This document shows, one piece after another, positions 39,028-64,000 of a DNA stretch of 64,000 bases. Within the stretch, counting starts at the first letter, position 1. Each line of letters begins with the position of its first letter. Source of the stretch: Bosea beijingensis (GTDB taxonomy: Bacteria; Pseudomonadota; Alphaproteobacteria; Rhizobiales; Beijerinckiaceae); contig NZ_CP132359.1 in the NCBI RefSeq assembly GCF_030758975.1, forward strand, positions 1,380,811 through 1,444,810. The letters are read 5' to 3'. The translations under genes and the position numbers were made by a program. Under the pieces are notes generated by a model, which saw only the letters and a list, made by a program, of their open reading frames with translations, was not told where the DNA came from and did not search any database.

Positions 39028-40515
39028 CTAGGAAGCGCTGCGTGATCCGAGAAACGCGTCGATGCTGGCGCGGGTCCCGGATCGCCAGATCCTCTGCAGC
39101 GCTTGAGAGAACGCTTCCCGGAAGCGCCGATCATCCGGCAGGTCTCCATAGATGTCGCGCATCTGGAGCCATGCATCCGGCGTAAGGCGGGCTCGCCGCG
39201 CCTCTGCGCTGAGCCGCGACCAATTCGGATCGTTCGGCGCGATCGGTCGCCCGCTCTCCGTTTCGCCGTAGCAGTAGCGGCACCAGAGCGCGCTCACGAG
39301 CGCGAGTCCGTCGATGGGCCGGCCGGCCTGCAAGGCATCGCGCAGCGTCGGCAGGATGAATTTCGGCTGGCGGTTGGACCCGTCGAGGCAGAGCCGGCGG
39401 ATGGTGTCGCCGATCTTCGGATTGGCGAAGCGCCGCTCGATCGTGCGCTTGTAGGCGGCGAGATCGGTATCCGGCACCGGCGGGACGACCGGAATGACCT
39501 CGTCGTCGAGCAGGGCCGAGAGGAAGCGGGCGATCTGGGCGTCCTCCATCGCCTCATGGACGAAATGGATGTCGAGCAGGCCGGCGGGGTAGGCGATCGC
39601 CGCATGGCCACCATTGAGGATGCGGATCTTCATCAGCTCGAACGGCGCGACATCGGCGACGAACTGCACGCCGACCTCTTCGAGACGCGGCCGGCCGGCC
39701 GGGAAATGATCCTCCAGCACCCATTGCCGGAAATCCTCGCAGAAGACCGGGCGGCTGTCCGCGATGCCGAAGTCGTCGTGCAGTGACTGGCGCTCGCGCT
39801 CCGAGGTCGCCGGCGTGATGCGATCGACCATGCCATTGGGGAAGGCGACGCTCTCGCGAAGCCAGCGCGCATCGTTGCTGTCGATCAGGTCGACCAACCC
39901 GACCACGGCGTCGGCCGTGACATGGCCGTTGCCCGGCAGGTTGTCGCAGGACATCACGGTGAAGGGCGGCAAGCCGGCCGCACGCCGTCTGAGGAGACCA
40001 GCGGCTATCAGGCCGAAGGCGGTCTTCGGGGCGGCAAGGCGGTCGGCGGCGTCGGCGATGATATCGGGATGGCCGGGATCGAAGGCCTGCGTCGCCGGGT
40101 CGATATAATAGCCGCCCTCGGTGACCGTGAGCGAGACGATCCGGGTGCGGGGATCGACGAGCCTTTCGAGGATCGCGGCGCTGTCGCCCGGCGCGACGAA
40201 ATCGATCATCGCGCCGGTGACGCGCGCCTGCGATCGTTCGGCCTCCTGCGTCACCACCGTCGTCAGGAAATCCTGCGCGGCGAGGTCGCGGCCCATCTCG
40301 GCATCGCTCTCGCGCACGCCGGTGCCGATGATCGCCCAGTCATGATCGCGCCCGCGCTCGAACAATTCGTCGAGATAGGCGGCCTGATGCGCGCGGTGGA
40401 AATTGCCGACGCCGATATGGACGATGCCCGGGTTTAGCTCTTCCCGCTGATAGCTGGGAACACCGACCGACGGGCTGAGCTGCCCGAGCGTCGCGCGGGA
40501 GAGGCACACTGCCAT
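39028..40515 (-). CDS. Mannitol/arabitol dehydrogenase family polyol dehydrogenase
   Basis: 495-residue long-chain NAD(P)-dependent polyol dehydrogenase (MtlK/UxaB family). The N-terminal Rossmann part has IVHIGVGNFHRAHQA. The catalytic Lys-x5-Asn-x2-His motif reads KIRILNGGH. Likely oxidises D-mannitol to fructose or D-arabitol to D-xylulose; the latter would feed the xylulokinase in the same run of genes. Last gene of the minus-strand run that begins at 48895, 3 bp after the GDPD gene. Confidence 0.9.
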   Translation of the reverse strand: MAVCLSRATLGQLSPSVGVPSYQREELNPGIVHIGVGNFHRAHQAAYLDELFERGRDHDWAIIGTGVRESDAEMGRDLAAQDFLTTVVTQEAERSQARVTGAMIDFVAPGDSAAILERLVDPRTRIVSLTVTEGGYYIDPATQAFDPGHPDIIADAADRLAAPKTAFGLIAAGLLRRRAAGLPPFTVMSCDNLPGNGHVTADAVVGLVDLIDSNDARWLRESVAFPNGMVDRITPATSERERQSLHDDFGIADSRPVFCEDFRQWVLEDHFPAGRPRLEEVGVQFVADVAPFELMKIRILNGGHAAIAYPAGLLDIHFVHEAMEDAQIARFLSALLDDEVIPVVPPVPDTDLAAYKRTIERRFANPKIGDTIRRLCLDGSNRQPKFILPTLRDALQAGRPIDGLALVSALWCRYCYGETESGRPIAPNDPNWSRLSAEARRARLTPDAWLQMRDIYGDLPDDRRFREAFSQALQRIWRSGTRASIDAFLGSRSAS

Positions 40516-40518
40516 GGC

Positions 40519-41259
40519 TTAGCCTTTCCGAGCAGCACGCAGCATCAAGGCGAGGTCGGGACGGTCGCTGGTAATCTGTGCGATCGGTTGGCCGAGCCAG
40601 AAATCGAGTTCGCGCACCGTGTTGGGCACCCAGGCGCCGAGCTTGTCGCGCCCGACGATGCCGACGGCGCGCTCGACGCATAGCCGCAGCAGCGACTGCT
40701 CGACGGCGATGATGCAGCCGAGATCGACGAAGCGCTGCAAGGTTCGGTCGACGCCGCCGAAGGCCTCGCAGGAGCGGCGGTCGACCGAGGCGAGCCGGCG
40801 CATATGCGGCGCCTTCGTCCGGATCTCCTCGATCACCTCCGGCACGAAGCAGGTCAGCACCACGCGCGCGGCCATCTTGCGGGCCTCGACGAGCGCGATG
40901 ACCTTGTCGAGCAGGCCGGGATAGGGATTGCCATAGGCATCCATCTTCATCTCGATCTCGAGTTCGATCCCGGTCGGGCCGAAGACATCGAGCACCTCCG
41001 GCAGGGTCGGGATGGTTTCGCCCAGCGTGTCGTCAAGCGTCACCTTGGCGAGCGCCGCCCGCGAGAGATGCGCGACCGGCCCCTTGTGATCGGTGGTGCG
41101 GTCGAGCAACGGGTCATGGATCACCATGATCTCGCCGTCGCTGGAGAGATGAACGTCGAGCTCGACGGCGTCGACGCCCAGGCCGCAGACATTGCGGAAG
41201 CCGCTCAGGCTGTTCTCCGCCCAGATGTTGCGCGCGCCGCGATGACCGATGATCCGCAT
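40519..41259 (-). CDS. ugpQ: Cytoplasmic glycerophosphodiester phosphodiesterase (UgpQ type)
   Basis: 246-residue GDPD-family enzyme without signal peptide. Active-site motifs GHRGARNIWAENSL (His5-Arg6), AVELDVHLSSDG and MVIHDPLLDRTT; GIELEIEMKMD supplies the substrate-side acidic residues. It should cleave glycerophosphodiesters after import. It follows the permease gene ugpE by 30 bp, the same association as ugpQ with the ugp operon of enterobacteria. Confidence 0.9.
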   Translation of the reverse strand: MRIIGHRGARNIWAENSLSGFRNVCGLGVDAVELDVHLSSDGEIMVIHDPLLDRTTDHKGPVAHLSRAALAKVTLDDTLGETIPTLPEVLDVFGPTGIELEIEMKMDAYGNPYPGLLDKVIALVEARKMAARVVLTCFVPEVIEEIRTKAPHMRRLASVDRRSCEAFGGVDRTLQRFVDLGCIIAVEQSLLRLCVERAVGIVGRDKLGAWVPNTVRELDFWLGQPIAQITSDRPDLALMLRAARKG

Positions 41260-41289
41260 GTCGAAAAGCCCTGCTAGCCTGTTGGCGGG

Positions 41290-42180
41290 TTATTTGCCGC
41301 TATCCACCAGCCCCTTCACGAACCAGCGCTGGAGGATGAGGATGACGATGGTCGGCGGCAGCATCGTCAGGAAGGCCGCGTTCATCAGGAGATGCCAGGT
41401 CGGCAGCGAGTCGCTCTGCGGCATCAGCTTCTTCAGGCCGATCACGGCATTGGCCATGGCGGGCTCGGTGGTGAGCAGCAGCGGCCAGAGATACTGGTTC
41501 CAGCCCATCAGGAAGAGGATGATCGCCAGCGCCACGATGTTCGAGCGCGACAGCGGCAGCAGGATCAGCCGGAAGAACTGCCAGGGCGTCGCGCCGTCGA
41601 TGCGCGCGGCCTCGCAGAGCTCGTCGGGGATGGTGAGGAAGAACTGGCGGAACAGGAAGGTCGCGGTTGCAGACGCAATCAGCGGCAGGATCAGGCCGGA
41701 ATAGGTGTTGACCAGGTTCCAGTCGAGATCGACCAGCGCCTTGATGCCGAGCCAGGAGCCGAGGATGTTCAGCGGCAGCGCGACATTCGCGGCGGATTCA
41801 TAGGTTGGCACGATGCGCACCTCGATCGGCAGCATCAGCGACATGAAGATCAGCCAGAAGGCCGTCATCCGGAAGGGAAAGCGGAAATAGGTGACGGCGA
41901 AAGCCGCGATCACCGAGACCGCGAGCTTCCCCACAGTGATGCCGGTTGCGATGATGAAGGAGTTGAGCAGCAGCCGGCCGAAATTGGCGTTGCTCAAAAC
42001 CGTCTGCATGTTCGCGAAGAACTGGCTGCCGGGCAGCCAGGACATCGGTACACGCATGATCTCCTGCTGCGAGAGCGAGCCGGTGACGAAGACGAAATAG
42101 ATCGGCAGGCAGACGAGCGCCGCGCCCACCAGCAGGATCATGTGGCAGAGAGCGTCGATGACGGGGGTGCGCTCGTTCAT
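41290..42180 (-). CDS. ugpE: Glycerol-3-phosphate-type ABC permease (UgpE/MalG-like)
   Basis: 296-residue inner-membrane permease with about six membrane segments. EAA-type loop ELCEAARIDGATPWQFFRLI and family C-terminus LQRWFVKGLVDSGK. Four bp downstream of ugpA. The name rests mainly on the very UgpB-like binding protein at the head of the operon. Confidence 0.9.
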   Translation of the reverse strand: MNERTPVIDALCHMILLVGAALVCLPIYFVFVTGSLSQQEIMRVPMSWLPGSQFFANMQTVLSNANFGRLLLNSFIIATGITVGKLAVSVIAAFAVTYFRFPFRMTAFWLIFMSLMLPIEVRIVPTYESAANVALPLNILGSWLGIKALVDLDWNLVNTYSGLILPLIASATATFLFRQFFLTIPDELCEAARIDGATPWQFFRLILLPLSRSNIVALAIILFLMGWNQYLWPLLLTTEPAMANAVIGLKKLMPQSDSLPTWHLLMNAAFLTMLPPTIVILILQRWFVKGLVDSGK

Positions 42181-42184
42181 GGTT

Positions 42185-43192
42185 CTAGACGCTGTAGTTC
42201 ACGCGGCGCTCCACGAAGCGGAACTGCGCGAAGGTCAGGAGCAGCGCGAGCGCCATCAGCACGACGGACTGCGCGGCCGACGAGCCGAGATCGAGCGTGA
42301 CGAAGCCGTCCTGATAGACCTTGTAGACCAGGATCGAGGTAGCACCGGCCGGGCCGCCGCGTGTGGTGGCGTCGACGATGGCGAAGGTCTCGAACAGCCC
42401 GTAGACGAAGTTGATCACGATCAGGAAGAACAGTGTCGGTGCGATCATCGGCAGCGAGATGCGCAGGAAGCGCTGGATCGGCCCAGCGCCGTCCAGATAA
42501 GCGGATTCGAGGATCGACTGGGGCACCGACATCAGGGCCGCGACGAGGAAGATGTAGTTGTAGCAGATGTGCTTCCACGAGGCGGCCATGACCACCAGCG
42601 CGAGCGCATGCCAGGAATTGCGGTTCGGGTCCCAGTCCAGCCCCATCCCCTGCAGCATATGGGCGACCGGGCCGACGCGGGGATTGAACAGGAAGGCGAG
42701 CATGATGCCGGCGATCGCCGGCGCGATGGCATAGGGCAGCAGCAGCACGGTGCGATAGGCGCCGCGGCCGCGCAGGATGTGGTTCGAGGCGAAGGCGAGC
42801 AGCAGCGCGAGCGACAGGGTCAGCACGTTCTGCGCGATCGTGAAGATCAGCGTGACCTGCGCCGAGGACCAGTAGACGTTGCTGCGGAAGAGCCGTTCGA
42901 AATTCTGGAAGCCGACCCATTGGGTCGTGGCGCCGAACGGGTCGGTGAGCTGGAAGGCCTGGATCAGAGCCCTGATCGAGGGAATGAAGAAGAACAAGAG
43001 CAGGATGAAGAGCTGCGGCGCCAGCAGCCAGAAGGGCAGGCGCCATTCCTTGAAATGCGCCCGCTTCAGCCCGCTCTCGGTCTGGCCATCGCTGGTGCCC
43101 TTCACGAAAAGGCGCCGCAGCGGCGAGCGGAGGCGTGGACCGCCCCCGCCAGCCGCTTGGGCGAGGCCAGCAGCCTTATTTCTTGCCAGCAT
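42185..43192 (-). CDS. ugpA: Glycerol-3-phosphate-type ABC permease (UgpA/MalF-like)
   Basis: 335 residues from ATG 43192, which overlaps the end of ugpB by 17 bp. Six-segment permease with EAA loop ILESAYLDGAGPIQRFLR. The N-terminus before AHFKEWRLPFWLLAP is unconserved, so a later start is possible. Confidence 0.88.
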   Translation of the reverse strand: MLARNKAAGLAQAAGGGGPRLRSPLRRLFVKGTSDGQTESGLKRAHFKEWRLPFWLLAPQLFILLLFFFIPSIRALIQAFQLTDPFGATTQWVGFQNFERLFRSNVYWSSAQVTLIFTIAQNVLTLSLALLLAFASNHILRGRGAYRTVLLLPYAIAPAIAGIMLAFLFNPRVGPVAHMLQGMGLDWDPNRNSWHALALVVMAASWKHICYNYIFLVAALMSVPQSILESAYLDGAGPIQRFLRISLPMIAPTLFFLIVINFVYGLFETFAIVDATTRGGPAGATSILVYKVYQDGFVTLDLGSSAAQSVVLMALALLLTFAQFRFVERRVNYSV

Positions 43193-44489
43193 TGAGCTGC
43201 TCGTAGCGGCGCAGCGCCTCGTTGCCGCGCGACACGGCATCGTCGAGCGCCTGCTGCACCGGCTTCCTGCCGAGGAAGGCGGCCGAGACCTCTTCCATGA
43301 TCGCGACGTTGATCTGGTTGCTGTTGCCGATGCGGAAGCCCAATGAATTGTCACTGGGCGTGCCGCGCATCAACTGAACCACGGCGATCTCGCGGGTTGG
43401 GTTCTTCTCGTAGTAGCCCTGCGCCTTGGCGGCGTCATAGGCGGCGGTCGTGACCGGTACATAGCCGGTCGCCTGGTGCCACCAGACCTGCGTGTCGGTC
43501 TTGGCGAGGAAGTCGTAGAAGGCGGCGACCGCCTTGTACTTCTCCGGCGTGTGGCCTTTAAGGGTCCAGAGCGCGGCGCCGCCGATGACGCTGTTCTTCG
43601 GCGTGACGCCCTGCTCATAGGGGATTTCCCTCGCGCTCCAGTCGAACTTGGCGGCCGCGACGACGGCGGCATGCGAAGCGGTGGAGGCGATGATCGTCGA
43701 GCATTCGCCGGAGGTGAAGAGCTGGATCGGGATGATGCCCTGGCCGGCGAGCTGCATCACGCCCGACGAGACGAGGCGCTTCATCCGCTCGACCTGGCCG
43801 ACGAGCTTGCCCTTGTTGAAGACGAAGCTGGTGTCGAGCCCGTCCATGCCGTTGCGCTTGGTCGCATAAGGGATGTCGTTCACGGCGCTGTAGTTCTCGA
43901 GGAAGCTCCACTCGTAGTCGCCGGGGAGCACCATCGCGCATTTCGAGACGCCCTTGGCCTTGATCGCGTCGAGCTGCGGCTCGAGTTCCTGCCAGGTCGC
44001 AGCGGGCTTGTCGAAGCCGGCCGCTTTGAAATGGTCGCGGTTGTAGAACAGGATCGGCGTCGAGGAGTTGAACGGCATCGCCTGCAGCTTGCCGTTGATG
44101 GCGAAGTAGCTGACCACCGGGGCGATGAATTTCGAGGTGTCGAGCGGCATGCCCTGCTCGGCCATCAATTCGTTGGTAGGGACGATGGCGCCGGAATTGA
44201 CCATGGTCAGGAAGGAACGCTCGTTCGACTGTACGATCTCGGGCTGGCGCTTGGCGCGATAGGCCGCGATCGTGCCGTTCAGGACCTCGTCATAGGTGCC
44301 CTTGGCGATCGATTTGACGACGTAGTCCTTCTGCGAGTCGTTGAACTTCTTCACGACCTCGTCGACGCGCTCGCCGAGCGCGCCGCTCATCGCGTGCCAG
44401 AGTTCGATTTCGGTTGCCGCCTGCACGGCGGAGATTCCCGTCAGCAGCAGGGCGCCTGCACCCGCCAAAGCGCCATAGAAAGGTCGCAT
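43176..44489 (-). CDS. ugpB: UgpB-like glycerophosphodiester/glycerol-3-phosphate binding protein
   Basis: 437-residue periplasmic binding protein with a signal peptide ending near residue 24. It tracks E. coli UgpB closely: IELWHAMSGALGERVDEV, PFNSSTPILFYNRDHFK, GGAALWTLKGHTPEKY, WHQATGYVPVTTAAYD and a GRKPVQQALDDAVSRGNEAL tail. Expected ligands are glycerol-3-phosphate and glycerophosphodiesters. Ribosome site GAGGGAGG before ATG 44489. Two operator-like palindromes lie just upstream (44518-44548). The cognate ATPase UgpC is missing from the operon. Confidence 0.92.
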   Translation of the reverse strand: MRPFYGALAGAGALLLTGISAVQAATEIELWHAMSGALGERVDEVVKKFNDSQKDYVVKSIAKGTYDEVLNGTIAAYRAKRQPEIVQSNERSFLTMVNSGAIVPTNELMAEQGMPLDTSKFIAPVVSYFAINGKLQAMPFNSSTPILFYNRDHFKAAGFDKPAATWQELEPQLDAIKAKGVSKCAMVLPGDYEWSFLENYSAVNDIPYATKRNGMDGLDTSFVFNKGKLVGQVERMKRLVSSGVMQLAGQGIIPIQLFTSGECSTIIASTASHAAVVAAAKFDWSAREIPYEQGVTPKNSVIGGAALWTLKGHTPEKYKAVAAFYDFLAKTDTQVWWHQATGYVPVTTAAYDAAKAQGYYEKNPTREIAVVQLMRGTPSDNSLGFRIGNSNQINVAIMEEVSAAFLGRKPVQQALDDAVSRGNEALRRYEQLNAGKK

Positions 44490-44517: not shown

Positions 44518-44548
44518 GAGCATATGCTCTTTGTTGAAGCATATGCTC
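44518..44548. promoter_or_regulatory. Tandem operator, probably for the SorC regulator
   Basis: AGCATATGCTC occurs twice with a 19-bp start-to-start distance (44519 and 44538); the first is part of the perfect palindrome GAGCATATGCTC. The site lies between the regulator gene and ugpB, right before ugpB's ribosome site. Confidence 0.65.
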
Positions 44549-44644: not shown

Positions 44645-45592
44645 TCAGTCCGCGAGCAGGGCGCGGGCGGTGTCCTCGTCGGTGACGAGGCCGTTGACGA
44701 TCCTGCCGGTCAGGGCGGCGCGAAGCGGCAAGACCTTGGCCGGGCCCTGGCCGATGCAGATGCGCAGGCGGCTGCTGCCCGGTTCCGGCGGTACGCTGGT
44801 GACGCGCAGGTTGGTGCCGCGATCGAGGAAGCGACCTTCGGCATCGAAAACCCAGCCGGTGACTTCGCCGACAGCGCCGTGGCGGACCATGTCGAGCAAT
44901 TCGCTGCGGTTCATGAAGCCATCGCGATAGAGCACGGCGTCCTCGCCGATCTGGCTGATGCCCATGACCCAGAGATCGGCCTCGCCGGCGATGGCGCGGA
45001 TGCGGCGGATCGACTCGATCTCGACGAGCTGGGCGCGCTCCTCGGGGCTTGAGACATAAAGCGGCAGCGGCATCGGGAAATGCTGCGCCTTGGTGATCTC
45101 GGCGAGCTTCACCAGCGTGTCGAACGGGCTGGCCGAGCCGTCCGGCGAGATGGTGCCGACCAGCGAAACCAGCCGGTGCAGCGGGCAGGACATCGAAGGC
45201 ACGCGCTCGATGCTGGCGCGCATCGAGCGGCCTGTGCCGAGCGCCATGACCAGCGACTTGCGCGAGCGCAGCCAGCGTTCGATCAGGACGCCGCCCAGCG
45301 CGGCGATGCCTGCTGCGCCCGTTTCCGGCGAGCCGTCGGAGGGGGCGACATCGCAATGCAGCAGCTCGAAGCGGTCGCGCAATCTGGCCGCGAGGTCCAT
45401 GCAGGTGCTGATCGGATGGTTCATCCGGAAGCTGATCAGCCCCTCGCTGCGGCAGAGCGAGACGAGGCGTTGCGCCGCCGGGCGCGAGATGTTCAGGATC
45501 TGCGCAATGTCGTCCTGCGTGCGCCCGGCGATATAGTAGAGCCAGCCGGCGCGGGCTGCATCTTCGAGGCGGGTGCTGTCGTTCTCTGCCAT
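44645..45592 (-). CDS. SorC family sugar-responsive regulator
   Basis: 315 residues. An N-terminal helix-turn-helix (TQDDIAQILNISRPAAQRLV) is followed by the SorC effector domain (VMALGTGRSMRASI, LVSLVGTISPDGS, ADLWVMGISQIGEDA). SorC proteins bind a phosphorylated sugar. ATG 45592 follows the HAD gene by 7 bp, so it is part of the run ADH-xylB-HAD-sorC-ugpBAE. Likely controls ugpB and the run through the palindromes at 44518 and 46307. Confidence 0.9.
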   Translation of the reverse strand: MAENDSTRLEDAARAGWLYYIAGRTQDDIAQILNISRPAAQRLVSLCRSEGLISFRMNHPISTCMDLAARLRDRFELLHCDVAPSDGSPETGAAGIAALGGVLIERWLRSRKSLVMALGTGRSMRASIERVPSMSCPLHRLVSLVGTISPDGSASPFDTLVKLAEITKAQHFPMPLPLYVSSPEERAQLVEIESIRRIRAIAGEADLWVMGISQIGEDAVLYRDGFMNRSELLDMVRHGAVGEVTGWVFDAEGRFLDRGTNLRVTSVPPEPGSSRLRICIGQGPAKVLPLRAALTGRIVNGLVTDEDTARALLAD

Positions 45593-45599
45593 CGCCGTC

Positions 45600-46283
45600 T
45601 CAGTGGGGCGCGGGCGCAAGCGCGAGCTCCCGCCAGGATTCGAAGAGGCGATCGGCTCCGGCTGCCAGCAAGGCCTGGCGCTGGTCAAGCACGGCGAAAT
45701 GGCTGCCGGCGGCGAGGCCATAGGCCGTCATGCCCGCCGCTTTCGCCGCGGTCACGCCGCTGACGCTGTCCTCGATCACCAGGCAGCGCTCGGGCGCGAC
45801 GCCGCGCTCGCTTGCTGCCAGCAGGAAGAGGTCGGGCGCCGGCTTGCCGCGCTGCACGCGCGTCGTGCTGAAAATCCGGCCGGCGAACAGGTCCCAGAGT
45901 TCGGTCTTGCGCAGGCAAGTCTCGATGCGCTCCTCGTCGCTGGACGAAGCCACGCAATAGTCGCTGCTCAGGCCTTCGACGGCATCGCGGACGCCTTCGA
46001 CCGGCTGGAGGTCGCGCCTGAACGCCGCGAAGAGCTGCGCCCGCCAGTCCCGTGTGAAATCAGCCGAGGCCGGGCGGCCGGTCATTCTCTCGTAGTCCTC
46101 GATGACTGCGCTGGCCGGCCGCCCGAGATAGCGGCGCATGACCGCTTCCAGATCATAGCTCGCATCGAAAGGCGAGAGAATATCGACGAGGGTCCGGCAG
46201 CTTATGGTTTCGCTGTCGACGAGCACGCCGTCGCAGTCGAGGATGACGAGGTCGAAGGGTGAGGGCGGGGGCAGAGAGGGCAT
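45600..46283 (-). CDS. HAD family sugar-phosphate phosphatase/phosphomutase-like
   Basis: 227-residue HAD hydrolase with nucleophile Asp16 and Asp18 in LDCDGVLVDSE, a helical cap, motif II VASSSDEERIE, motif III Lys in RGKPAPDLFLLAA and motif IV VIEDSVSGV. Similar to YieH/beta-phosphoglucomutase-type proteins; in this setting dephosphorylation of a polyol- or sugar-phosphate is the simplest guess. Confidence 0.88.
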   Translation of the reverse strand: MPSLPPPSPFDLVILDCDGVLVDSETISCRTLVDILSPFDASYDLEAVMRRYLGRPASAVIEDYERMTGRPASADFTRDWRAQLFAAFRRDLQPVEGVRDAVEGLSSDYCVASSSDEERIETCLRKTELWDLFAGRIFSTTRVQRGKPAPDLFLLAASERGVAPERCLVIEDSVSGVTAAKAAGMTAYGLAAGSHFAVLDQRQALLAAGADRLFESWRELALAPAPH

Positions 46284-51680: not shown

Positions 51681-51718
51681 CGGAAAGCCTTTGGAATGAT
51701 GGGCCGGCATGGAATCTC

Positions 51719-55058: not shown

Positions 55059-56246
55059 TCAGGCCCTCAGCGGCACGACGGAGCCGGTCGCGGCGCCGGG
55101 GCCGCGCGGCTCGATGCGCTCGCCATCGGCGGCGAAGACATGGGCGGCGGTCTCGTCGAAGCCGAGCGTGACCTCGGCGGCCTCGTTCACCCCGGCGGCT
55201 GCGGCGGGTGTCGCGCGCATCGTCACGCCCGCGGCATCGCGCCCGGCGAGATCGAAATGCAGGATGTACTCGGAGCCGAGATTCTCCTTGCGCCGCAGGC
55301 GTGCCGAGAACCAGGCCCGGCCGCTGCCGCCGGGCTCGCCCTGGATGAGCGAAAGCCCTTCCGAACGAATGCCCAGCGTCACCGCTTGTCCCTGCGCGAG
55401 GGGCACGGCGAGCGCCAACGGTCGGCCGAAGAGTTCGAGGCGTCCACCCTGCGCGACCGTCGCCGGCAGCAGGTTGATCGCCGGGCTGCCGATGAATTGC
55501 GCGACCTTCAGCGAGGCGGGCTTCTCGTAGAGCTGCGAGGGCGTGCCGAGCTGCAGCACGGACCCGGAATCCATCATCGCGACGCGGTCCGACATCGTCA
55601 TCGCCTCGACCTGGTCGTGCGTGACATAGATGAAGGTCGCGCCGAGGCGCTTGTGCAGCTCGGCCAGCTCCGTGCGCATATGGACGCGCAGCTTGGCGTC
55701 GAGATTCGAGAGCGGTTCGTCCATCAGGAAGACGTCCGGGTTGCGCACCATGGCTCGCCCGAGCGCGACGCGCTGGCGCTGCCCACCCGAGAGCTGGGCC
55801 GGTTTGCGCGCCAGCAGATGGTCGAGCTGGAGCTGCGCCGCGACGGCAGCGACATCGGCCTCGATGCCTCGCATCACCGTCCTGCGCTGGGCGGAAAGCT
55901 GCCGCAGCAGCGGCAGGCGCTGCCAGAGCTTGAGCCGCGACATCGTCAGCGGCAGGGCGATGTTCGCGCCGACGCTCATATGCGGATAGAGCGCATAGGA
56001 CTGGAAGACCATGGCGACGCGGCGCTCATGCGGGCGCAGATGGTCGACGCCGCTGCCGCCGATCGCGACACTGCCGCCATCCTGATGCTCCAGGCCGGCA
56101 ATGATCCGGATCAGCGTCGATTTCCCGCAGCCGGACGGGCCGACCAGCGTCAGGAACTCGCCATCGGCGATATCGAGATCGACGCCGCCCAGCACCTTCG
56201 TCGGTCCGAAGGATTTGGCGATCGAGGAGAGTGTGACCTTGGCCAT
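55059..56246 (-). CDS. ABC importer ATPase (MalK/UgpC type)
   Basis: 395 residues. Walker A GPSGCGKST (36-44), signature LSGGQRQR (152-159), Walker B VFLMDEP (172-178), then a C-terminal regulatory OB domain. Compared with MalK it has an extra helical stretch of about 23 residues at 106-128 (KLWQRLPLLRQLSAQRR). It is the only such ATPase in the window, although three importers of this class are present; sharing is possible, as with MsmX-type ATPases. Confidence 0.92.
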   Translation of the reverse strand: MAKVTLSSIAKSFGPTKVLGGVDLDIADGEFLTLVGPSGCGKSTLIRIIAGLEHQDGGSVAIGGSGVDHLRPHERRVAMVFQSYALYPHMSVGANIALPLTMSRLKLWQRLPLLRQLSAQRRTVMRGIEADVAAVAAQLQLDHLLARKPAQLSGGQRQRVALGRAMVRNPDVFLMDEPLSNLDAKLRVHMRTELAELHKRLGATFIYVTHDQVEAMTMSDRVAMMDSGSVLQLGTPSQLYEKPASLKVAQFIGSPAINLLPATVAQGGRLELFGRPLALAVPLAQGQAVTLGIRSEGLSLIQGEPGGSGRAWFSARLRRKENLGSEYILHFDLAGRDAAGVTMRATPAAAAGVNEAAEVTLGFDETAAHVFAADGERIEPRGPGAATGSVVPLRA

Positions 56247-56326: not shown

Positions 56327-57148
56327 TCAGGCGGCGTGCGGCGGGTAGACCTCGTGGATCACGTCGTCGATCCAGAGCGTCTTCAGCGCGGGTATCTCGT
56401 GGATTTCGGCCGTGAATTCCCGTCCGTCGAAGGTGTAGGAGACGGCACCGAGCGTGGTCGTTCCGGCCATGCCCGGCTGCAATTCGGGGCCGACGACGAA
56501 ACCGGAGGAGGGCCCCCAGATATAGCGCGTGCCGGCGATCGTGAAGTCATGCGCGCGGTGCAGGTGGCCGCTGGCGACGAAGGCGACCTCGTGGCGGCTG
56601 ATGAGATCGAGCAGATGCGCGCGGGGCCGCGGCGGCACGCTCCAGTAGCCCATGTCGCCCTCGTCGGGCGCCTGGACGAAAAGCGGGCGGTGCAGGAACC
56701 AGCCGAGGCGGCGGCGCTGCGCCTCCGCGATCTGCTGGTCGAGCCAGGCGAGCTGGCGCTTTTCCTCGGCCTCGTCGCTGCCGAAGAGCATCGAATTGAG
56801 GCCGATCAAGCGCCAGTCCTCGAGGTCATGGACCCAGAAGTCTTCGCCGAGATGCTGGCGCCAGCGCACGAGGCGGGCATCGTTCACCGGCTGGTGCGGA
56901 TGATAGGCTTCGCCGACATCGTGATTGCCGGGGATGCTGAGCACGGGCCTGCCCAGCGCGTCGAGCAAAGTCCGGCAATGGCGCATGTCCTCGTCGATAT
57001 CCGCACCATCGACCGTGACGTCGCCGGTATGGATGACGAGGTCCGGCGCCTGTGCGCGGAGCCACTCGGTCAGCGGAGCCCAATTGTCGGCGAAATGCCG
57101 CTTGGTCGGACTCAGATGCGTGTCGGAAATCTGCACGATACGCTGCAT
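56327..57148 (-). CDS. Metallophosphoesterase (second GpdQ/CpdA-like enzyme)
   Basis: 273 residues. Metal ligands visible: Asp9, His11 (QISDTHLSP), Asp43 (HTGDVTVDG), Asn75-His76 (IPGNHDVGE), a middle His (WFLHRPLF) and a GHLH pair (SGHLHRAHDF). GGAGGGGAC precedes ATG 57148. It heads the ABC operon 57148-51897 and so probably acts on the imported compound. Substrate unknown; a phosphodiester fits. Confidence 0.88.
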   Translation of the reverse strand: MQRIVQISDTHLSPTKRHFADNWAPLTEWLRAQAPDLVIHTGDVTVDGADIDEDMRHCRTLLDALGRPVLSIPGNHDVGEAYHPHQPVNDARLVRWRQHLGEDFWVHDLEDWRLIGLNSMLFGSDEAEEKRQLAWLDQQIAEAQRRRLGWFLHRPLFVQAPDEGDMGYWSVPPRPRAHLLDLISRHEVAFVASGHLHRAHDFTIAGTRYIWGPSSGFVVGPELQPGMAGTTTLGAVSYTFDGREFTAEIHEIPALKTLWIDDVIHEVYPPHAA

Positions 57149-57228
57149 GTCCCCTCCGGAATTCGCCACTTCTTCGGGCGACCGTCTCATCCCGGAGCGA
57201 GCGCCGGGCAGCGGCTTTGCCTTGGACC

Positions 57229-57260
57229 ATACAAATGAATGTTTGATGACACAATTGTAT
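57229..57260. promoter_or_regulatory. Operator-like inverted repeat before the metallophosphoesterase operon
   Basis: ATACAAATG (57229) and CAATTGTAT (57252) match in 8 of 9 positions across a 14-base spacer, in an AT-rich island 81 bp before the start codon. Confidence 0.45.
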
Positions 57261-57304
57261 TTTAAGCGTTCTTTCACCTCGCTGCGGTCGAAAACTGTTG
57301 CCGG

Positions 57305-58033
57305 CTAGAGATCCGTACTCTGCGGCAGGATCACGAGGTCGCGGATCGTGACATTGCGCGGGCGGGTCAGCATGAAATGCACGGCCTCCGCCACCTCTTC
57401 CGCCTCGATCAGGCCGCCGCGAGCGCGCTCGGCGTCGAGCTTCTCCTTTGGCCAGTCGGCAATCAGGGCGGTCACCACCGGGCCGGGCAGCACGGCACCG
57501 ACGCGCAGGCCATGCGGGATGACCTGCCGGCGCAAGGTGTGGACGAAGGCCTGAACCGCATGTTTCGAGGCGGTGTAGACCGGCTCCCAGACCACCGGGA
57601 CGATGCCGGCGACCGAGCTGGTGACGAGGATGTCCCCGGTCTTGCGCGCGATCATATGCGGCAGCACGGCATGGATGCTGCGGAAGACCGCGTTGACGTT
57701 GAGGTTGAGCATGCGGTCCCAGGCATCGGGATCGCCTTCGCTCACCGGCCCGCCGACATAAGAGCCGGCATTGGCATGGAAGATCTCGAGCGGGCCGGCC
57801 TTGTCGAGGATCGCCGGCAGCATGCCGGCGACGGAGACGGGATCGGTGAGGTCGACGACGAGCGGGATGGCCGCACCACCGAGCGGTTCGCAGGCCTTCG
57901 CGAGCGCTTCGCCGTCGCGATCGACCAGGACGACGCGCGCGCCGGCTGCGAGCAGGCGCTTCGCGCAGGCGAGGCCGATTCCCGAGGCCGCGCCGGTGAT
58001 CGCGGCGGTCTTTCCGGTCAGGTCCTGGGTCAC
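57305..58033 (-). CDS. SDR family polyol dehydrogenase, ribitol 2-dehydrogenase-like
   Basis: 242 residues from a GTG at 58033 that forms GTGA with the kinase stop. Cofactor motif TGAASGIG (13-20), NAG (88-90), catalytic Ser139/140, Tyr153 and Lys157 (YTASK). Sequence style (DIFHANAG-like [34 protein letters not shown]) recalls rhizobial ribitol dehydrogenases, which make D-ribulose. The coupled upstream gene is a ribulokinase-like enzyme, the logical next step. Confidence 0.87.
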
Positions 58034-59685
58034 GTCGAGGTCTCCGATAGAGCGTGATGGCGCGGGGGGCGCATGAGCGCACGAGCCGTGCGGGCCGCGG
58101 CTTGCAATGTCTCGAAGGCAGCAAGGCGATTTGCGTGCAACTCGGCGATCTCGCCACCGGCCGGAGTGAAGACGGCGGCGCCGGGCGCCATCTCGGTCAT
58201 GGCCTCGCCGAGGCCGGGGAAGGCTTTCGCGGCCGTCGCCCCGAGCATGGCCGAGCCGAGCAGAACCGGGTCGACATCGTCGGGGGCGAGCAACGGCAAT
58301 CCCGAGCAGTCCGCCAGCAATTGCCGGATCAGGGGATGGCGCCCGGCGCCGCCGCTGAGCACGATCGCGTCGATCGTGGCGCCCTTCGCTCGGCTGGCCT
58401 CGATGATCTGGCGCAGGCCGTAGCCGATACCGGTCAGGCCCGCGACATAGAGCGCGGCGAGATGGTCGAGATCGCGCTCCATGCCGAGCCCCGCGATCAC
58501 GGCGCGCGCCTGCGGATCGGCATGGGGCGAGCGGTTGCCGAGGAAATCCGGCACGACGATGATCTCGCCGGCGAGGCGGGCCGCTTCCGACGGCGTGGCG
58601 ACATGCCGGGCTGCCTGTGTCGCGAGCCAGTTCGGCAATGACAGCCCTTCGGCTTCGGCAAGGCGCTGCGCCTCGGGCGCCGCCGGGTGGAAGCCGATAA
58701 GCTGCTCGATGGCGGCACCGGCACCGGATTGCCCGCCCTCGCTGAGCCAGAGACCGGGCGCCATCGCCGAGAAATACGGGCCCCAGATGCCGGGAATGAA
58801 GACCGGTTCGGCACTGCTCGCCATGGTGCAGGCCGAGGTGCCGAAGACATAGGCCATGCGGGTCAGCGCCGAGCCGTGCGGGGAGCGCACGCCGACCGAG
58901 CCGACACCGCCGGCATGGGCATCGATCAATCCGGCGGCGACGCACGTGCCGGGCTTCAGGCCAAGCTCGGCCGCCGCCTGCTCAGTGAGACCACCGCCGA
59001 GGGCCGTACCGCCCGGAACGATCTCGGTGCCGATGCGGTCGAAATTGCCATCGGCGAGATCGTCGAGGCCGATCTGGCGAAAATAGCTCGCGTCCCAGCG
59101 CGCTTCATGGGCGAGATAGGTCCATTTGCAGGTGACCGTGCAGGTCGAGCGCGCGAGCGAGCCGGTCGCGCGCCAGGTCAGGAAATCCGGCAGATCGAAG
59201 AATTGCCAGGCCGCGTCATAGGTCGCCGGCAGGTTCTCCTTGAGCCAGAGCAGCTTCGGCGTCTCCATCTCCGGCGAGATCGTGTCGCCGACATAGGCGA
59301 GGACCGGATGCCTGGTCGCGTTGATGCGCTCCGTCTGGTCGAGCGCGCGATGGTCCATCCAGACGATGATGTCGCGGGTGGCGTCGCCATGCGGCCCGAC
59401 GGGGACGGGTTTCCCGCCGGGGCCGAGCACGACCAGCGAGCAGGTCGCGTCGAAGCCGAGACCGGCGATGTCGTCCGGCCTGAGCTCAGCCTGATCCATC
59501 GCCTCTCGGACGCTGACACAGACCGCATGCCAGATATTCGCGCTCGACTGCTCGGCGATGTCAGGCCCGTCGCGCCAGAGCGCGATATCGCGCTTCGCCG
59601 TCGCGAGCATGCGCCCGGCCTTGTCGAAGATGCCGGCCCGGGCGCTGCCGGTGCCGACATCGATGCCGATGAAATGGCCGGCCAT
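58030..59685 (-). CDS. FGGY carbohydrate kinase, D-ribulokinase-like
   Basis: 551 residues. N-terminal [42 protein letters not shown] and C-terminal [15 protein letters not shown] are typical of the ribulokinase (FGGY/YDR109-like) branch rather than of glycerol or xylulose kinases. Expected reaction is D-ribulose to D-ribulose-5-phosphate. One base after the FAD oxidoreductase gene, and coupled to the SDR. Confidence 0.87.
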
Positions 59686-59686
59686 G

Positions 59687-61126
59687 TCAGGCGGCAGCAC
59701 GGTTCGGCGGCCCGGCGCGGGTGCCGTCCGGGTTGCGCAGGTAGACGCCGCGCTCGAGCTGCTGGCGGCGCAGTTCGCCCACATCGATATCGGCCGGCGG
59801 GCGGTTGCCGCGCACCGAGATCTTGGCGGCGCGGCCGGCGGCTTCGCCCATCGCCATGCAGGTCGCCATCACGCGGATCGCGCCCATCGCCTCATGGGTC
59901 GCGGAGATGCTGCGCCCGGCGACGAGCAGGTTGCCGATCTTCTGCGGCACCAGCGAGCGATAGGGGATGTCGTAGCAGTCGCCGCACCAGATCAGCGTGC
60001 AGCCATCGTCGGAAGGGCGGTGGATGTCGATCGGATAGCTCGCCACCGCGATCGCGTCGTCGAAATGCGTGCAGGCCAGCACGTCCTCCTGCGTCATCAC
60101 ATATTGGCCGCGGATGCGACGCGTCTCGCGGATGCCGAGGAAGGGCGCGGTCTTGGTGAAATAGGCGTTCTCGAAGCCCGGCACGTAATTGACGAGATAG
60201 GTGACGATGTCGTCGATCTGGGCGCGGCCCTCGATCTCGCCCTTGGTCAGACTGCGGGCATCGGTCCCGTCCGTGCCCTTGACGCGGGTCATGTTGATCC
60301 AGACCTCGCCCTTCTTCAGGCCGGTGATGATGATGGTGCGCTCGTTCGGGATCTGCAGGCCGCGCTCGGCCTTGGCCTTGGCCATCAATTCGCGCATTCC
60401 GACGACGATGAACTGGTGGTTCTGGCCGAAATACTCGGCCGGAATGAAGTCGGTGAGATAGGTCCGCGCCGCAGGCGGGGCATTGGCGATGGAAAGGCGC
60501 AGCGCATCGGTGTCGACGCCGGCGAGGCAGAACATCAGCGTCGGCGGCTGCATGCCGCCATGCTCGTTGCCCTTCTCGGTCGGCACGCCGGCGCTGTAGG
60601 CGACGTCCGCGTCGCCGCTGCAATCGATCACGACCTTGGCAAGGATGGCGGTGCGGCCGCTCTTGCTCTCGGTGATGACGCCGCGGATCGTGTCGTTCTC
60701 GACCAAGGCGCCGGCGAAGAAGGTGTAGAACAGCACGTCGACGCCGGCTTCCGTCAGCATCTCCAGCGCGACCGTCTTCACCGCCTCGGGCTCGACCAGC
60801 GTGATGCCCATGTGGAGCGGGCAGGGCCGGTGCTCGCTCGCGCCCTGGCGCTCGCGGCGCAGGCGCTCGATGAATTTCTGCGGCAGGCCTTCGATGATCT
60901 GGTTGCCCTTCTGGCCGAGGAAGCCGAGCACCGGCAGGCCGATCGTCATATTGCCGCCGACGAAGCTGCGGCTCTCGATCAGCCCGACGCGCAGGCCATC
61001 CTCGGCGGCGGCGAGCGCAGCGGTGAGGCCGGATGGGCCGCCGCCGACGACGAGCACGTCATATTCGGCGGAGACGGGGATGGAGCGGGCCGGCTCCTCG
61101 ATGAAGCGGGTCGCGGCGGTCGACAT
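59687..61126 (-). CDS. FAD-dependent oxidoreductase (PF12831-type)
   Basis: 479 residues. Dinucleotide motif YDVLVVGGGPSGLTAALAAA, CSGDADVAYSAG, GRSISATHEAMGAIRVMATCMAMG at the C-terminus. The family is often found with sugar importers, but its substrates are poorly known. Placed between the binding protein and the ribulokinase, it may oxidise the imported sugar or polyol. No signal peptide; cytoplasmic. Confidence 0.85.
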   Translation of the reverse strand: MSTAATRFIEEPARSIPVSAEYDVLVVGGGPSGLTAALAAAEDGLRVGLIESRSFVGGNMTIGLPVLGFLGQKGNQIIEGLPQKFIERLRRERQGASEHRPCPLHMGITLVEPEAVKTVALEMLTEAGVDVLFYTFFAGALVENDTIRGVITESKSGRTAILAKVVIDCSGDADVAYSAGVPTEKGNEHGGMQPPTLMFCLAGVDTDALRLSIANAPPAARTYLTDFIPAEYFGQNHQFIVVGMRELMAKAKAERGLQIPNERTIIITGLKKGEVWINMTRVKGTDGTDARSLTKGEIEGRAQIDDIVTYLVNYVPGFENAYFTKTAPFLGIRETRRIRGQYVMTQEDVLACTHFDDAIAVASYPIDIHRPSDDGCTLIWCGDCYDIPYRSLVPQKIGNLLVAGRSISATHEAMGAIRVMATCMAMGEAAGRAAKISVRGNRPPADIDVGELRRQQLERGVYLRNPDGTRAGPPNRAAA

Positions 61127-61199: not shown

Positions 61200-62495
61200 T
61201 CAGGCCGGCATCATTGGTTTGACGCGCTCGATGATCGCGGAGACCGCGTCCTTGACCGGCTTGCGGCCGATCACGGCGAGCTGAACCTCCTCGAGGAAGG
61301 TCGCCTGGGCGCGGGCGGCTTCGGGGAAGGGCGGGAAGGCGCCCCGCGCCGTCGCCAATACCTTGGCCTCGACGGCGGCGAGCGGGTTCTTCGCTTTGAG
61401 CCCTTCATCGGCATAGGAGGAGACGCGGACCGGGCCGTTGCCGTTGATCGCCATGCCGAGCGTCACGCGCTTGCTGGAGACCTCCTTGATGAAGCTCCAG
61501 GCCATTGCCTTGTCCTTGGCGTTCTTGGGGATCGACATCGCCCAGGCCTCGACGACGGAAGCCATCGGCATCTTGCCCTCGATCGCCTTTGAGCCGGGGA
61601 AGGGCACGGCCTTGATCTTGCCGGGGAACTTGCTCTGCTCGGCATTGTTGAGCTGCGCGCCCCGCGCGAAGGGCAGAACGGTGAAGGCGGCACGGCCCTG
61701 CTGCAGCCATGTCACCTGGTCGTCGTTCTTGGTCGTGGCGTAGCTGCGGGGCAGGCTGCCGGCCTCGAACATGCCACGCAGTGCGCTGAGCCCTTGCTCC
61801 AGCGCCTCGCGGTTCGGCACGAGCTTGAGATCGGGGCTGATGAAGTCGCCGCCATAGGCGCGGGCGAACATCACCGGGAAGACGGCGAGGTCGCTCGCCA
61901 GCACCATACCGGTCACCGGCGTGCCGGCCTTGGAGGTGAAAGTCGTCTTCTTCGCCTGCTCGATCAGCTCTTCCAGCGTCGCCGGCGGGGCGGAGATGCC
62001 GGCCTCCTCCAGCAGCGCCTCGTTGTAGAACAGGCCTTGCGTCGCGTGGCGCACGGGAATTCCGATCAGCTTGCCGTCGACCGTCATGCCCTGGACGAGG
62101 CCCGGCGCGATATCGCCGAAATCTTCGATCGCGTCCTTATCCTGATACGGGCCGAGCGGCTCGAACAAGGCGGCGATCTGCGAGGTTGGACGATTGTCGA
62201 TGAGATAGCCGACGCCGTACTCGGTTTCCTTCAGGCTGGCTTCGCGGAAGAGCCGGTCTTGCAACGGGTTAGAGTCGAAGGTGGTGAAGGCGATCTCGGC
62301 GTCGTTGGCCTTGCGCCAGCCCGCCATCAGGTCGCCGTCGCCGCTGCCGAGCACGGTCTGGTGGACCTTGTGACTGAGCACGTTCAGCGTCTTGCCGGCG
62401 GCGCGCGCTGTGCCAACGGTGAAGGCGGCGGCGACACCGGCGGAGCCGGCGATGAAGGCACGGCGGGTAAGCTTGGTCTTAGGCTTGTTCGGCAT
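61200..62495 (-). CDS. ABC transporter substrate-binding protein with Tat leader
   Basis: 431 residues. Twin-arginine leader KLTRRAFIAGSAGVAAAF, then a family 1 extracellular solute-binding domain (GLFYNEALLEEAGISAPPAT, AWSFIKEVSSKRVTLGM). Polyol or sugar ligand expected from the operon (FAD oxidoreductase, ribulokinase, ribitol-type SDR downstream). Confidence 0.88.
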   Translation of the reverse strand: MPNKPKTKLTRRAFIAGSAGVAAAFTVGTARAAGKTLNVLSHKVHQTVLGSGDGDLMAGWRKANDAEIAFTTFDSNPLQDRLFREASLKETEYGVGYLIDNRPTSQIAALFEPLGPYQDKDAIEDFGDIAPGLVQGMTVDGKLIGIPVRHATQGLFYNEALLEEAGISAPPATLEELIEQAKKTTFTSKAGTPVTGMVLASDLAVFPVMFARAYGGDFISPDLKLVPNREALEQGLSALRGMFEAGSLPRSYATTKNDDQVTWLQQGRAAFTVLPFARGAQLNNAEQSKFPGKIKAVPFPGSKAIEGKMPMASVVEAWAMSIPKNAKDKAMAWSFIKEVSSKRVTLGMAINGNGPVRVSSYADEGLKAKNPLAAVEAKVLATARGAFPPFPEAARAQATFLEEVQLAVIGRKPVKDAVSAIIERVKPMMPA

Positions 62496-62520
62496 GTTCT
62501 TCCTCCCTCTTTTTGGTTGG

Positions 62521-63354
62521 CTATCCCTTCGTCGAACCGGCGGTGAGGCCGGCCACGAGGTAGCGGTTCATGAAGACGACGAAGAGAAGGACGGGCACGA
62601 GCTGCACCGTCGCGGCGGCGAAGAGGATCCCCCAGTCGACCCCGTCGATGGAGCCGATCATCTCGGAGATCACGAGCGGGGCGGTTTTCGCCTTGGTCGC
62701 GGTGAAGATGAAGGCGAAGAGGAACTCGTTCCAGGAGAAGACGATCACGAAGACCGAGACCGCGAGCACGCCGGGCATCGCCAGCGGCGCGATGACCTTG
62801 CGCAGGATGGTCATGCGGCTTGCGCCATCCATCGCGGCGGCTTCGTCGAGCTCGCGCGGGATCTGGTCCATGAAGGTGCGCATGAGCACGGTGCCGAGCG
62901 AGACGAAGAAGGTCGCGTAGAGCAGGATCAGCACGAGATGCGTATCGCTGAGCCCGAGCCAGTTCACGATCGGGAAAAGCGGCAGGGTCACCACGATCGG
63001 CGGGATCAGGCGGACGATGATGAGCCCGAGCAGGCTTGCGCCGAGCCAACGCCCGGAATTGCGCGAATAGACATAGCCGGCGCAGGCGCTGGCGACGATG
63101 GCGAGCAGGGTCGCGCCGACCGTGATCAGCAGGCTGTTGAGCAGCCCCTCGAAGAACACGCCCCACGAGCGCCAGAGCGCGGCGTAGTGCTTGAAGGTCG
63201 GGGTGAACAGCCATTTCGGCGGCATCGCGAAGATGTCCTGGCCGGGCTTCAGCGAGGACATCGCGATGAACAGGATCGGGAACAGCGACCAGAACAGGAT
63301 CGCCGCGACGGCGAGCGCCTTGCCCAGCCCGATCAGAAGCCGCTCAGTGCGCAT
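62521..63354 (-). CDS. ABC permease (MalG type)
   Basis: 277 residues from ATG 63354 (MRTERLLIG), overlapping the upstream permease by 11 bp. Six membrane segments; EAA loop ELDEAAAMDGASRMTILRKV; ends RYLVAGLTAGSTKG. Partner of the Tat-exported binding protein. Confidence 0.9.
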   Translation of the reverse strand: MRTERLLIGLGKALAVAAILFWSLFPILFIAMSSLKPGQDIFAMPPKWLFTPTFKHYAALWRSWGVFFEGLLNSLLITVGATLLAIVASACAGYVYSRNSGRWLGASLLGLIIVRLIPPIVVTLPLFPIVNWLGLSDTHLVLILLYATFFVSLGTVLMRTFMDQIPRELDEAAAMDGASRMTILRKVIAPLAMPGVLAVSVFVIVFSWNEFLFAFIFTATKAKTAPLVISEMIGSIDGVDWGILFAAATVQLVPVLLFVVFMNRYLVAGLTAGSTKG

Positions 63355-64000
63355 GAGAGACGCCTCCACGCCTGAGCAGGAAGACATAGGCGCCTGCCAG
63401 CAGCAGCGAGGCCAGCACCATGATCCAGGCGGTCGCCGCGGCCGGGCCGAAGGCGTTGAAGCTGAAGGCCTCCTGATAGAGGTAGATCGCCACCACCTCG
63501 GTCGAGCGCGCCGGGCCGCCTTTGGTCAGGAGCCAGGCCTCCGAGAACAGGCGGAAGGCGAAGATGTAGCGGAACAGCAGCGCGATCAGCATGGCTGGCG
63601 CAAGCAGCGGCAGCGTCACCTGCCGGAAAGCCTGCCAGCGCGTCGCGCCGTCGATCCGGGAGGCTTCGTAGAGCTCGGCGGGAATGGCGAGGCGGGCCGC
63701 ATAGACGATGACGAAGGTGAAGGGCAGGTGCAGCCAGATCGTCAAAAGGCCGATCAGGACCATCGCGTGCGACGGCTCGAAGGACCAGTCGAGCGTCGGC
63801 AGGCCGAGCGTGCGCAGCGTCAGTGTGATCGGCCCCGCATCGGGATCGAACAGGAAGCGCCACATCACCACGGCGGTGACCTCGCTGACCGCATAGGGCG
63901 CAAGCACCGCGACGAGCAGGAAACGACGGAAGGGCAGGCCGCTGGCGAAGAGCAGCGCCATGCCGAGCCCGACGGCGAGTTCCAGATGCACGGCCACCAC
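63344..64000 (-). CDS. ABC permease (MalF type), C-terminal 218 residues (runs off right edge)
   Basis: The frame is open at the window edge. EAA loop ELYEASRIDGATRWQAFRQV and TKGGPARSTEVVAIYLYQEA identify a MalF-type sugar permease. It overlaps the MalG-type gene. The N-terminal segments and any ATPase would lie beyond 64000. Confidence 0.9.
   Translation of the reverse strand: MVAVHLELAVGLGMALLFASGLPFRRFLLVAVLAPYAVSEVTAVVMWRFLFDPDAGPITLTLRTLGLPTLDWSFEPSHAMVLIGLLTIWLHLPFTFVIVYAARLAIPAELYEASRIDGATRWQAFRQVTLPLLAPAMLIALLFRYIFAFRLFSEAWLLTKGGPARSTEVVAIYLYQEAFSFNAFGPAAATAWIMVLASLLLAGAYVFLLRRGGVSHAH

Follow-up and report, generated by a model that had tools for sequence, protein, structure and literature searches.

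The described systems closest to the genes considered here are the ugpBAECQ genes of E. coli and rhizobia, in which a UgpB/A/E-type importer has a GDPD gene nearby, and the acc operon for agrocinopines on Ti plasmids, in which the order is importer, diesterase (AccF, of the GDPD family), and monoesterase of the inositol-monophosphatase (IMPase) family; in the accessible part of PMC4526662, the sugar phosphate is released inside the cell. For UgpB itself, the accessible part of PMC12718374 has the phosphate held in the Phaeobacter protein by Tyr64, Ser143, Ser266, and Tyr342, and the glycerol by Gly303, Arg393, Glu88, and two tryptophans. Here, we describe a locus of Bosea beijingensis that shares features with both: in the 64,000-nucleotide stretch analysed (contig NZ_CP132359.1, positions 1,380,811 to 1,444,810 of the forward strand; “the window”), the last 25 kb hold two gene sets, modules A and B, in which UgpB-type importers are accompanied by phosphoesterases, polyol dehydrogenases, and kinase genes.

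We lean toward the reading that the two modules are parallel, side-by-side scavenging pathways for polyol phosphodiesters, built on the same logic. The UgpB-type ABC importer of each module would take up an intact polyol-bearing phosphodiester; cleavage would fall to a cytoplasmic diesterase, GDPD for module A and a GpdQ-type enzyme for module B; the remaining phosphate would be stripped by a monoesterase, HAD and IMPase, respectively; a polyol dehydrogenase (the MtlK or the MDR enzyme) would yield a ketose; and xylulokinase would pass the ketose into the pentose phosphate pathway. By eye, a signal peptide is seen on all three binding proteins but on none of the five phosphoesterase N-termini; the cell would accordingly have to import the diester intact and cleave it afterwards. 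Phosphodiester scavenging by modules A and B is well supported by comparison of gene sets; phosphodiester transport, the order of the reactions, a pentitol or related polyol as head group, and the pairing of regulators with operators are inferred.

Gene inventory and arrangement

Families were assigned with Pfam and NCBIfam profiles, the curated NCBIfam cut-offs serving as yardstick. Genes are labelled A1–A9, R2, and B1–B13, with B7 also called GpdQa and B2 GpdQb. Module A is made up of UgpBAE, GDPD, and MtlK, and module B of a metallophosphoesterase, importer, GpdQ, and IMPase, linked to SorC/ADH/XylB (ADH being the A9 dehydrogenase); a third set, unit C, has an importer, an FAD enzyme, a pentulose kinase, and a ribitol-dehydrogenase-like SDR, and is listed further below. 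SBP denotes a substrate-binding protein.

39028..40515, minus strand: A1, mannitol/D-arabitol dehydrogenase family, MtlK-like (Pfam Mannitol_dh; best PDB match mannitol 2-dehydrogenase 1lj8, 406 bits)
40519..41259, minus strand: A2, GDPD-family phosphodiesterase (PF03009 8e-27; HRG, E-D, HD, and E-x-K motifs conserved)
41290..42180, minus strand: A3, UgpE-type permease (NCBIfam UgpE 328.8 bits, cut-off 297)
42185..43105, minus strand: A4, UgpA-type permease, start uncertain (NCBIfam UgpA 317.5 bits, cut-off 335)
43176..44489, minus strand: A5, UgpB-clade SBP with altered glycerol pocket (UgpB 396.4 bits, cut-off 411)
44518..44548, no strand: tandem GAGCATATGC palindromes, putative module A promoter, upstream of A5 (16 sequences aligned)
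44645..45592, minus strand: A6, SorC-type regulator (PF04198 2.4e-48 on the longer open reading frame 44645-45721)
45600..46283, minus strand: A7, HAD phosphatase, YieH/HxpB-like (PF13419; 6-phosphogluconate phosphatase 120 bits, below the cut-off of 211)
46357..47817, minus strand: A8, xylulokinase, XylB (TIGR01312 532 bits, cut-off 380)
47855..48895, minus strand: A9, zinc-type polyol dehydrogenase, MDR (PF08240/PF00107; L-idonate 5-dehydrogenase 172 bits, below the cut-off of 469)
48933..48954, no strand: conserved AATGTA-N10-TACATT palindrome between A9 and R2
49089..50039, plus strand: R2, SorC-type regulator (56.5% identity to the annotated sugar-binding regulator of pRL9)
50050..50841, minus strand: B1, inositol-monophosphatase family (PF00459 1.5e-45; motifs)
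50838..51710, minus strand: B2, GpdQ-like phosphodiesterase (best PDB match GpdQ 2dxl, 170 bits)
51897..53168, minus strand: B3, SBP with UgpB-type phosphate site (hhalign to UgpB, probability 100; residues)
53258..54133, minus strand: B4, permease (PF00528)
54133..55056, minus strand: B5, permease (PF00528)
55059..56246, minus strand: B6, UgpC/MalK-type ATPase (UgpC 386 bits, cut-off 432)
56327..57148, minus strand: B7, metallophosphoesterase (GpdQa), first gene of module B (PF00149 1.5e-13; motifs)
57214..57263, no strand: conserved block upstream of B7, aligned in five genomes of two genera, with AAAATACAATTG at 57252-57263, one of two genome sites

The genome is one 5.56-Mb contig that holds the window, with even GC content, and the nearest named relatives of the A2 GDPD are from Bosea (96% identity). 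The inventory given in the original prediction was confirmed by Pfam and NCBIfam at its coordinates: three CUT1-type importers, with SBPs and permease pairs, five phosphoesterases (A2, A7, B1, B2, and B7), three polyol dehydrogenases of differing folds (A1, A9, and the SDR B8), and two FGGY ketose kinases (A8 and B9); the SorC regulator R2 was absent from it. B6 is the sole importer ATPase in the window by Pfam and NCBIfam. ATPase genes are absent from the other two importer units (41290-44489 and 61200-64000), and the UgpC-like B6 may serve all three.

Tight coupling of the genes by overlaps, also proposed originally, holds for nine junctions that overlap or lie less than 10 bases apart (B13/B12, B10/B9, B9/B8, B6/B5, B5/B4, B2/B1, A7/A6, A4/A3, and A2/A1), but not for the wider gaps of 155 bases at A6/A5, 156 at B8/B7, 186 at B3/B2, and, depending on the start, 70–109 at A5/A4. 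Since the A6/A5 and B8/B7 gaps, like the A9/R2 intergenic region, hold conserved promoter-like DNA, these are the likely unit starts, and the arrangement looks like three separately promoted units rather than one.

Binding pockets and neighbours of module A

The binding pocket was compared in A5 and its relatives. Y64, S143, S266, Y342, E88, G303, and Trp191 are kept in all 38 A-type rows of the alignment (two of them duplicate genomes), while Arg393 is lost in all 38, with Asn, Met, Thr, or Trp instead, and kept in 13/13 classical rows. Trp188, kept in 12 of the 13 classical rows, is replaced at the aligned position in the A-type proteins; these carry an aromatic residue at the second position ahead of Trp191, and their pocket may thus retain an aromatic clamp. 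Because the phosphate residues are kept and Arg393 is lost, the predicted ligand bears a phosphate, with its other half held unlike glycerol. The same four phosphate residues (Tyr, Ser, Ser/Thr, Tyr) are found in B3 and its relatives, in 19 rows from 12 sources, one row being without the first Tyr, as the sequence is cut there.

The neighbours of the A-type genes were compared with those of classical UgpBs. UgpB was searched for in 397 genomes of the order, with at most four candidates scored per genome, and among the matches listed its relatives separate by score: ten genomes reach 500 bits or more (at least 53% identity), and the classical UgpBs score no more than 370 bits. The A-type set consisted of all eight genomes at 500 bits or more outside the genus of the window (L152–L159), and the control of 12 classical loci, of which eight come from those genomes; L147 and L148 were also found through UgpB, hand-picked among 236 plasmid records. 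All neighbour counts rest on identity cut-offs chosen by us, and loci shorter than 10 kb, such as L028, were excluded from them. At equal cut-offs, a GDPD of the A2 subfamily adjoins UgpB in 8/8 A-type and 0/12 classical loci (Fisher 8e-6), and an FGGY kinase in 5/8 and 0/12 (Fisher 0.004), three of the five FGGY-positive loci being close relatives and one matching at only 36% identity. Near 4 of 13 classical UgpBs (L163, L164, L166, and L172) there are GDPDs that fall short of the cut-off.

This comparison bears on a plainer explanation, that modules A and B carry out ordinary scavenging of glycerophosphodiesters (deacylated phospholipids) for phosphate and glycerol-3-phosphate, and that the adjoining polyol genes, like those of smo, mtl, and rbt, handle free mannitol, arabitol, or ribitol. 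A3 scores over the UgpE cut-off and A5 just under that for UgpB, some A-type loci are without polyol genes, and elsewhere a GpdQ-type enzyme and importer adjoin ethanolamine or inositol genes, as this explanation would have it. We nevertheless regard it as unlikely, given the loss of R393 throughout the sampled A-type clade, a rare shared promoter element (see below), and the linkage to polyol genes in several genera, with no polyol genes found at the 13 classical ugp loci at the chosen cut-offs (an SDR of 32% identity about 8 kb away at L171 being below them).

In total, 25 distinct A-type loci (27 rows, L029/L103 and L026/L111 appearing to be the same genomes) were found via GDPD or GpdQb. 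One or more polyol or kinase genes lie within 10.5 kb in 22 of them, the others being L013 (short), L026, and L112; for L009–L062 the query was GDPD, so the GDPD linkage there is a selection effect. The plasmid pRL9 of R. johnstonii has in one stretch SorC, UgpC, UgpB (56%), UgpA, UgpE, GDPD, HAD, SDR, and FGGY, and a genome of another family (G436) has relatives of A5, A2, B1–B3, R2, A9, B8, and B9 inside 20 kb. GDPD, PhoD, and HAD are present in Nitratireductor, with polyol genes absent nearby. A PhoD-type gene directly follows GDPD in seven loci, with a twin-arginine-like motif, by eye, in 6/6 N-termini examined. PhoD and GlpQ of B. subtilis act on teichoic acids, and teichoic acid thus stays a candidate substrate.

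Module B, regulatory elements, and unit C

Relatives of GpdQb at an E value of 1e-30 or better occur in 36/149 genomes of the family, five of them (G000, G011, G148, G051, and G010) at 70% identity or more, the next being at 51%. All five carry GpdQa, the ATPase, two permeases, SBP, GpdQb, IMPase, R2, and ADH, and G148, G051, and G010 have a second xylulokinase between R2 and IMPase. In G148 and G010 the module A GDPD match is absent at the search cut-off and module B is complete, so module B can stand alone, from importer to kinase.

Of the motifs that mark the enzyme families, those of metallophosphoesterases are kept in B2 and B7, and EE and DPLDGT, though not the third metal-site Asp, in B1, which was aligned to 2p3n (the roles of the B1 motifs being general background). 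The description of B2 and B7 as two GpdQ-like enzymes stands for B2, which in the PDB search scores 170 bits with GpdQ and 74 with Rv0805; B7 has the motifs but no PDB match at E 0.001. Other importers of the B3 type adjoin a GpdQ-type gene in Thioclava, Roseibium, and Allorhizobium (30–34% to B2), a GpdQa-type gene in Phyllobacterium (51% to B7), an EEP-family gene and HAD in Rhizobium sp. 007, and a PHP-domain gene in Paracoccus (a weak Pfam match just over the cut-off). GpdQa relatives are present in 28/297 genomes of the order, the gene context having been examined for Phyllobacterium.

Four phosphoesterase families (GDPD, GpdQ-type, EEP, and PHP-domain) lie beside A-type or B3-type importers, and these, together with the conserved phosphate-binding residues of A5 and B3, would be left unexplained if the locus took up only free polyols or sugars and the phosphoesterases were damage-control phosphatases for by-products of the kinases. 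A phosphatase-like gene does stand beside the free-polyol smo locus, in the accessible part of its source (cited below), and unit C, whose SBP is without the phosphate residues, fits free-polyol uptake; we nevertheless consider this explanation of the locus highly improbable.

Between GpdQb and B3 (51720-51840) lies a near-perfect 120-base inverted repeat with an RNA fold of -87 kcal/mol (z -10.4) and about twenty dispersed copies in the genome at roughly 70–90% identity, a REP/MITE-like element.

The palindrome AATGTA-N10-TACATT between A9 and R2 is present with no more than one mismatch in 13/13 aligned relatives (17 were checked, of which L152, L153, L030, and L031 are without the divergent arrangement), and at this stringency there is no second site in the 5.56-Mb genome. 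The DNA preceding B7 has a stretch of about 40 bases that is conserved in five genomes of two genera, the flanks being unalignable. The 12-base element AAAATACAWTTG has exactly two sites in the genome, namely the A9/R2 and B7 promoters, the W of the pattern having been picked after both sites were seen, which counts against the weight of this coincidence; the word is also found just upstream of an R2-type gene in G122 (L113). The presence of AAAATACAWTTG at both promoters points to R2 as the regulator of module B and the ADH–XylB–HAD–SorC operon jointly.

The regulator of module A is probably A6. Upstream of A5, TTGACA and two GAGCATATGC-like palindromes are common to the 16 aligned sequences, some with one or two changes, and the genome has a single exact copy of the 12-mer GAGCATATGCTC. 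In G051, which belongs to another genus, a one-mismatch copy of the R2 palindrome also stands at the promoter of module A, in the UgpB/HAD gap (0/200 in shuffles). Among 15 A-type loci outside the closest relatives, a one-mismatch R2 operator upstream of UgpB was found only in L106, the other 14 having a three-mismatch site or none.

Beyond the B7 promoter lies unit C:

57305..58033, minus strand: B8, ribitol/sorbitol dehydrogenase-like SDR (best PDB matches ribitol 2-dehydrogenases 9x6o, 340 bits, and 5jo9, 310 bits)
58030..59688, minus strand: B9, FGGY pentulose kinase (TIGR01315 699 bits, cut-off 409; best PDB match 3gg4, 529 bits)
59687..61126, minus strand: B10, FAD oxidoreductase PF12831 (Pfam; adjoins B9 in 10/15 genomes)
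61200..62495, minus strand: B11, SBP without phosphate-site residues (profile match and residue alignment)
62521..63345, minus strand: B12, permease (profile match)
63345..64000, minus strand: B13, permease, running past the window end; a LacI-like reading frame (by eye) is next

A single pathway over the whole 25 kb, as the original prediction had it, was rejected: unit C stands behind the LacI-like frame, the UgpB phosphate residues are absent from B11 in the alignment, and the unit is often unlinked. In 8/15 genomes, module A or B has unit C, or the FGGY and SDR genes of the unit, as its neighbour; in the other 7, mostly drafts with the matches on other contigs, unit C was not found beside either module. 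By comparison, the phosphodiester scheme is supported for modules A and B, and only loosely for unit C. Because pRL9 has orthologues of B8 (SDR, 68%) and B9 (FGGY, 63%) after GDPD and HAD, unit C may complete a ribitol branch. B10 is 94–99% identical, and beside the FGGY kinase, in ten of the 15 relatives' genomes.

Several further observations weigh against two pathways for polyol diesters. GpdQa was found in only 8/15 genomes with module A, so the modules often part, and no polyol gene was found within 10.5 kb in four of ten UgpB-found A-type loci (L148, L154, L157, and L159). The third metal-site Asp of B1 is His (motif SHAAA) in 18/18 rows of its clade, module A is without an ATPase gene of its own, and the specific names of the HAD (A7) and ADH (A9) score under curated cut-offs. 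For the UgpBs in the accessible part of PMC12718374, the ligands are glycerol phosphates or glycerophosphocholine, and one half of the ligand here may therefore be glycerol. Lastly, the SBP beside Klebsiella GpdQ is only 23–26% identical to B3 and A5. Unlinking of phosphoesterases and polyol genes in relatives had been named in advance as evidence against the scheme; for modules A and B, the genes proved to be linked in several genera and families, if not at every locus, with regulatory DNA in common. The substrates named at that time (ribitol/arabitol teichoic acid and glycerophosphoinositol) remain guesses.

To our knowledge, no ligand is known for many UgpB/CUT1 carbohydrate importers of root-associated bacteria. 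Here, nutrient chemistry can be predicted from the diesterase, monoesterase, dehydrogenase, and kinase that go with the importer, and the residue signature sets the A-type UgpB clade apart from glycerol-phosphate importers. If true, the polyol-phosphodiester reading would give a rule for annotating phosphodiester importers from neighbour genes and reveal an overlooked source of soil carbon and phosphorus, possibly Gram-positive wall polymers or fungal polyol esters. A bolder and doubtful extension is that soil and root-associated Hyphomicrobiales might mix and match pentitol-phosphodiester pathways, with a UgpB subclass for phosphate but not glycerol, SorC regulators with a private operator, and twin-arginine PhoD as the first polymer cutter outside the cytoplasm; the substrates might then be, for example, ribitol/arabitol teichoic acid fragments or an undescribed fungal or plant glycerophospho-pentitol.

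Comparison with known systems

No description of this pathway was found in the literature searched, subscription papers being outside it, and the terms looked up in R. leguminosarum papers returned nothing on the pRL9 operon. Module A differs from ugpBAECQ in its SBP, where R393 is lost and D-[aromatic]-x-W replaces W-x-x-W, and in its SorC-type regulators, attached polyol and kinase genes, and lack of ugpC.

The equal order of functions in acc would fit an alternative in which the locus serves sugar (not polyol) phosphodiesters made by plants or other organisms, like the system for agrocinopines, with the polyol genes acting on a reduced or isomerised product. Oligopeptide-type importers do accompany relatives of the A2 GDPD, which also have a HAD gene beside them in Microvirga and Paracoccus and a SorC-type gene in R. 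etli. The acc importer, however, is of this oligopeptide type, and polyol pathway genes are absent from the acc stretch examined. A2 as an orthologue of AccF was rejected, annotated AccF having only 34% identity over 47%, as was B1 as an orthologue of AccG, the protein at the AccG position being 29% identical and keeping the Asp that B1 has replaced by His. An agrocinopine-like role is, on this evidence, improbable.

In S. meliloti, the smo/mtlK, lalA-rbtABC, and mpt loci likewise lead through a polyol dehydrogenase and kinase into central metabolism, but they serve free polyols, with no diesterase mentioned in the parts of the sources available; in the accessible part of PMC10433430, mtlK of smo lies near phosphatase-like and kinase genes, which also speaks for the free-polyol explanations above. 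XanT–XanP xanthosan uptake in Xanthomonas, as far as the accessible part of PMC12807533 goes, likewise imports a sugar phosphodiester and then hydrolyses it as a nutrient; the substrate there is a cyclic galactose diester.

Relatives of GpdQ are found in varied surroundings. In Martelella, a GpdQ-type gene is accompanied by an IMPase-family gene and by a UgpB-type importer that is only remotely similar; in Azospirillum thermophilum, one is about 3.6 kb from eutBC with no importer adjoining; and the neighbours of GDPD/GpdQ relatives in Deinococcus deserti and Paraburkholderia were uninformative. On an S. chiapasense plasmid (L149), a GpdQ-like gene with its own importer lies within a phn C–P lyase cluster, and the Ruegeria relative adjoins an unrelated importer; these two contexts indicate that a GpdQ-type enzyme does not by itself imply a link to polyols. 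On Thioclava plasmids (L141, L146), the B3-type importer and GpdQ-type enzyme adjoin divergent eat-eutBC, suggesting uptake of glycerophosphoethanolamine.

The Klebsiella locus (L151, L173) resembles module B in having a GpdQ-type diesterase among ABC importer genes, here beside iol head-group catabolism; the diesterase matches GpdQ at 619 bits over 274 residues and is that enzyme itself. It has inositol genes in place of a ketose kinase, and no IMPase is annotated in the stretch examined; glycerophosphoinositol is suggested as the natural substrate there by the adjoining inositol catabolism genes. The succession of importer, diesterase, and monoesterase proposed for the Bosea modules is thus that of acc, and a GpdQ-type enzyme and importer also neighbour head-group genes elsewhere, those for ethanolamine in Thioclava and those for inositol in Klebsiella.

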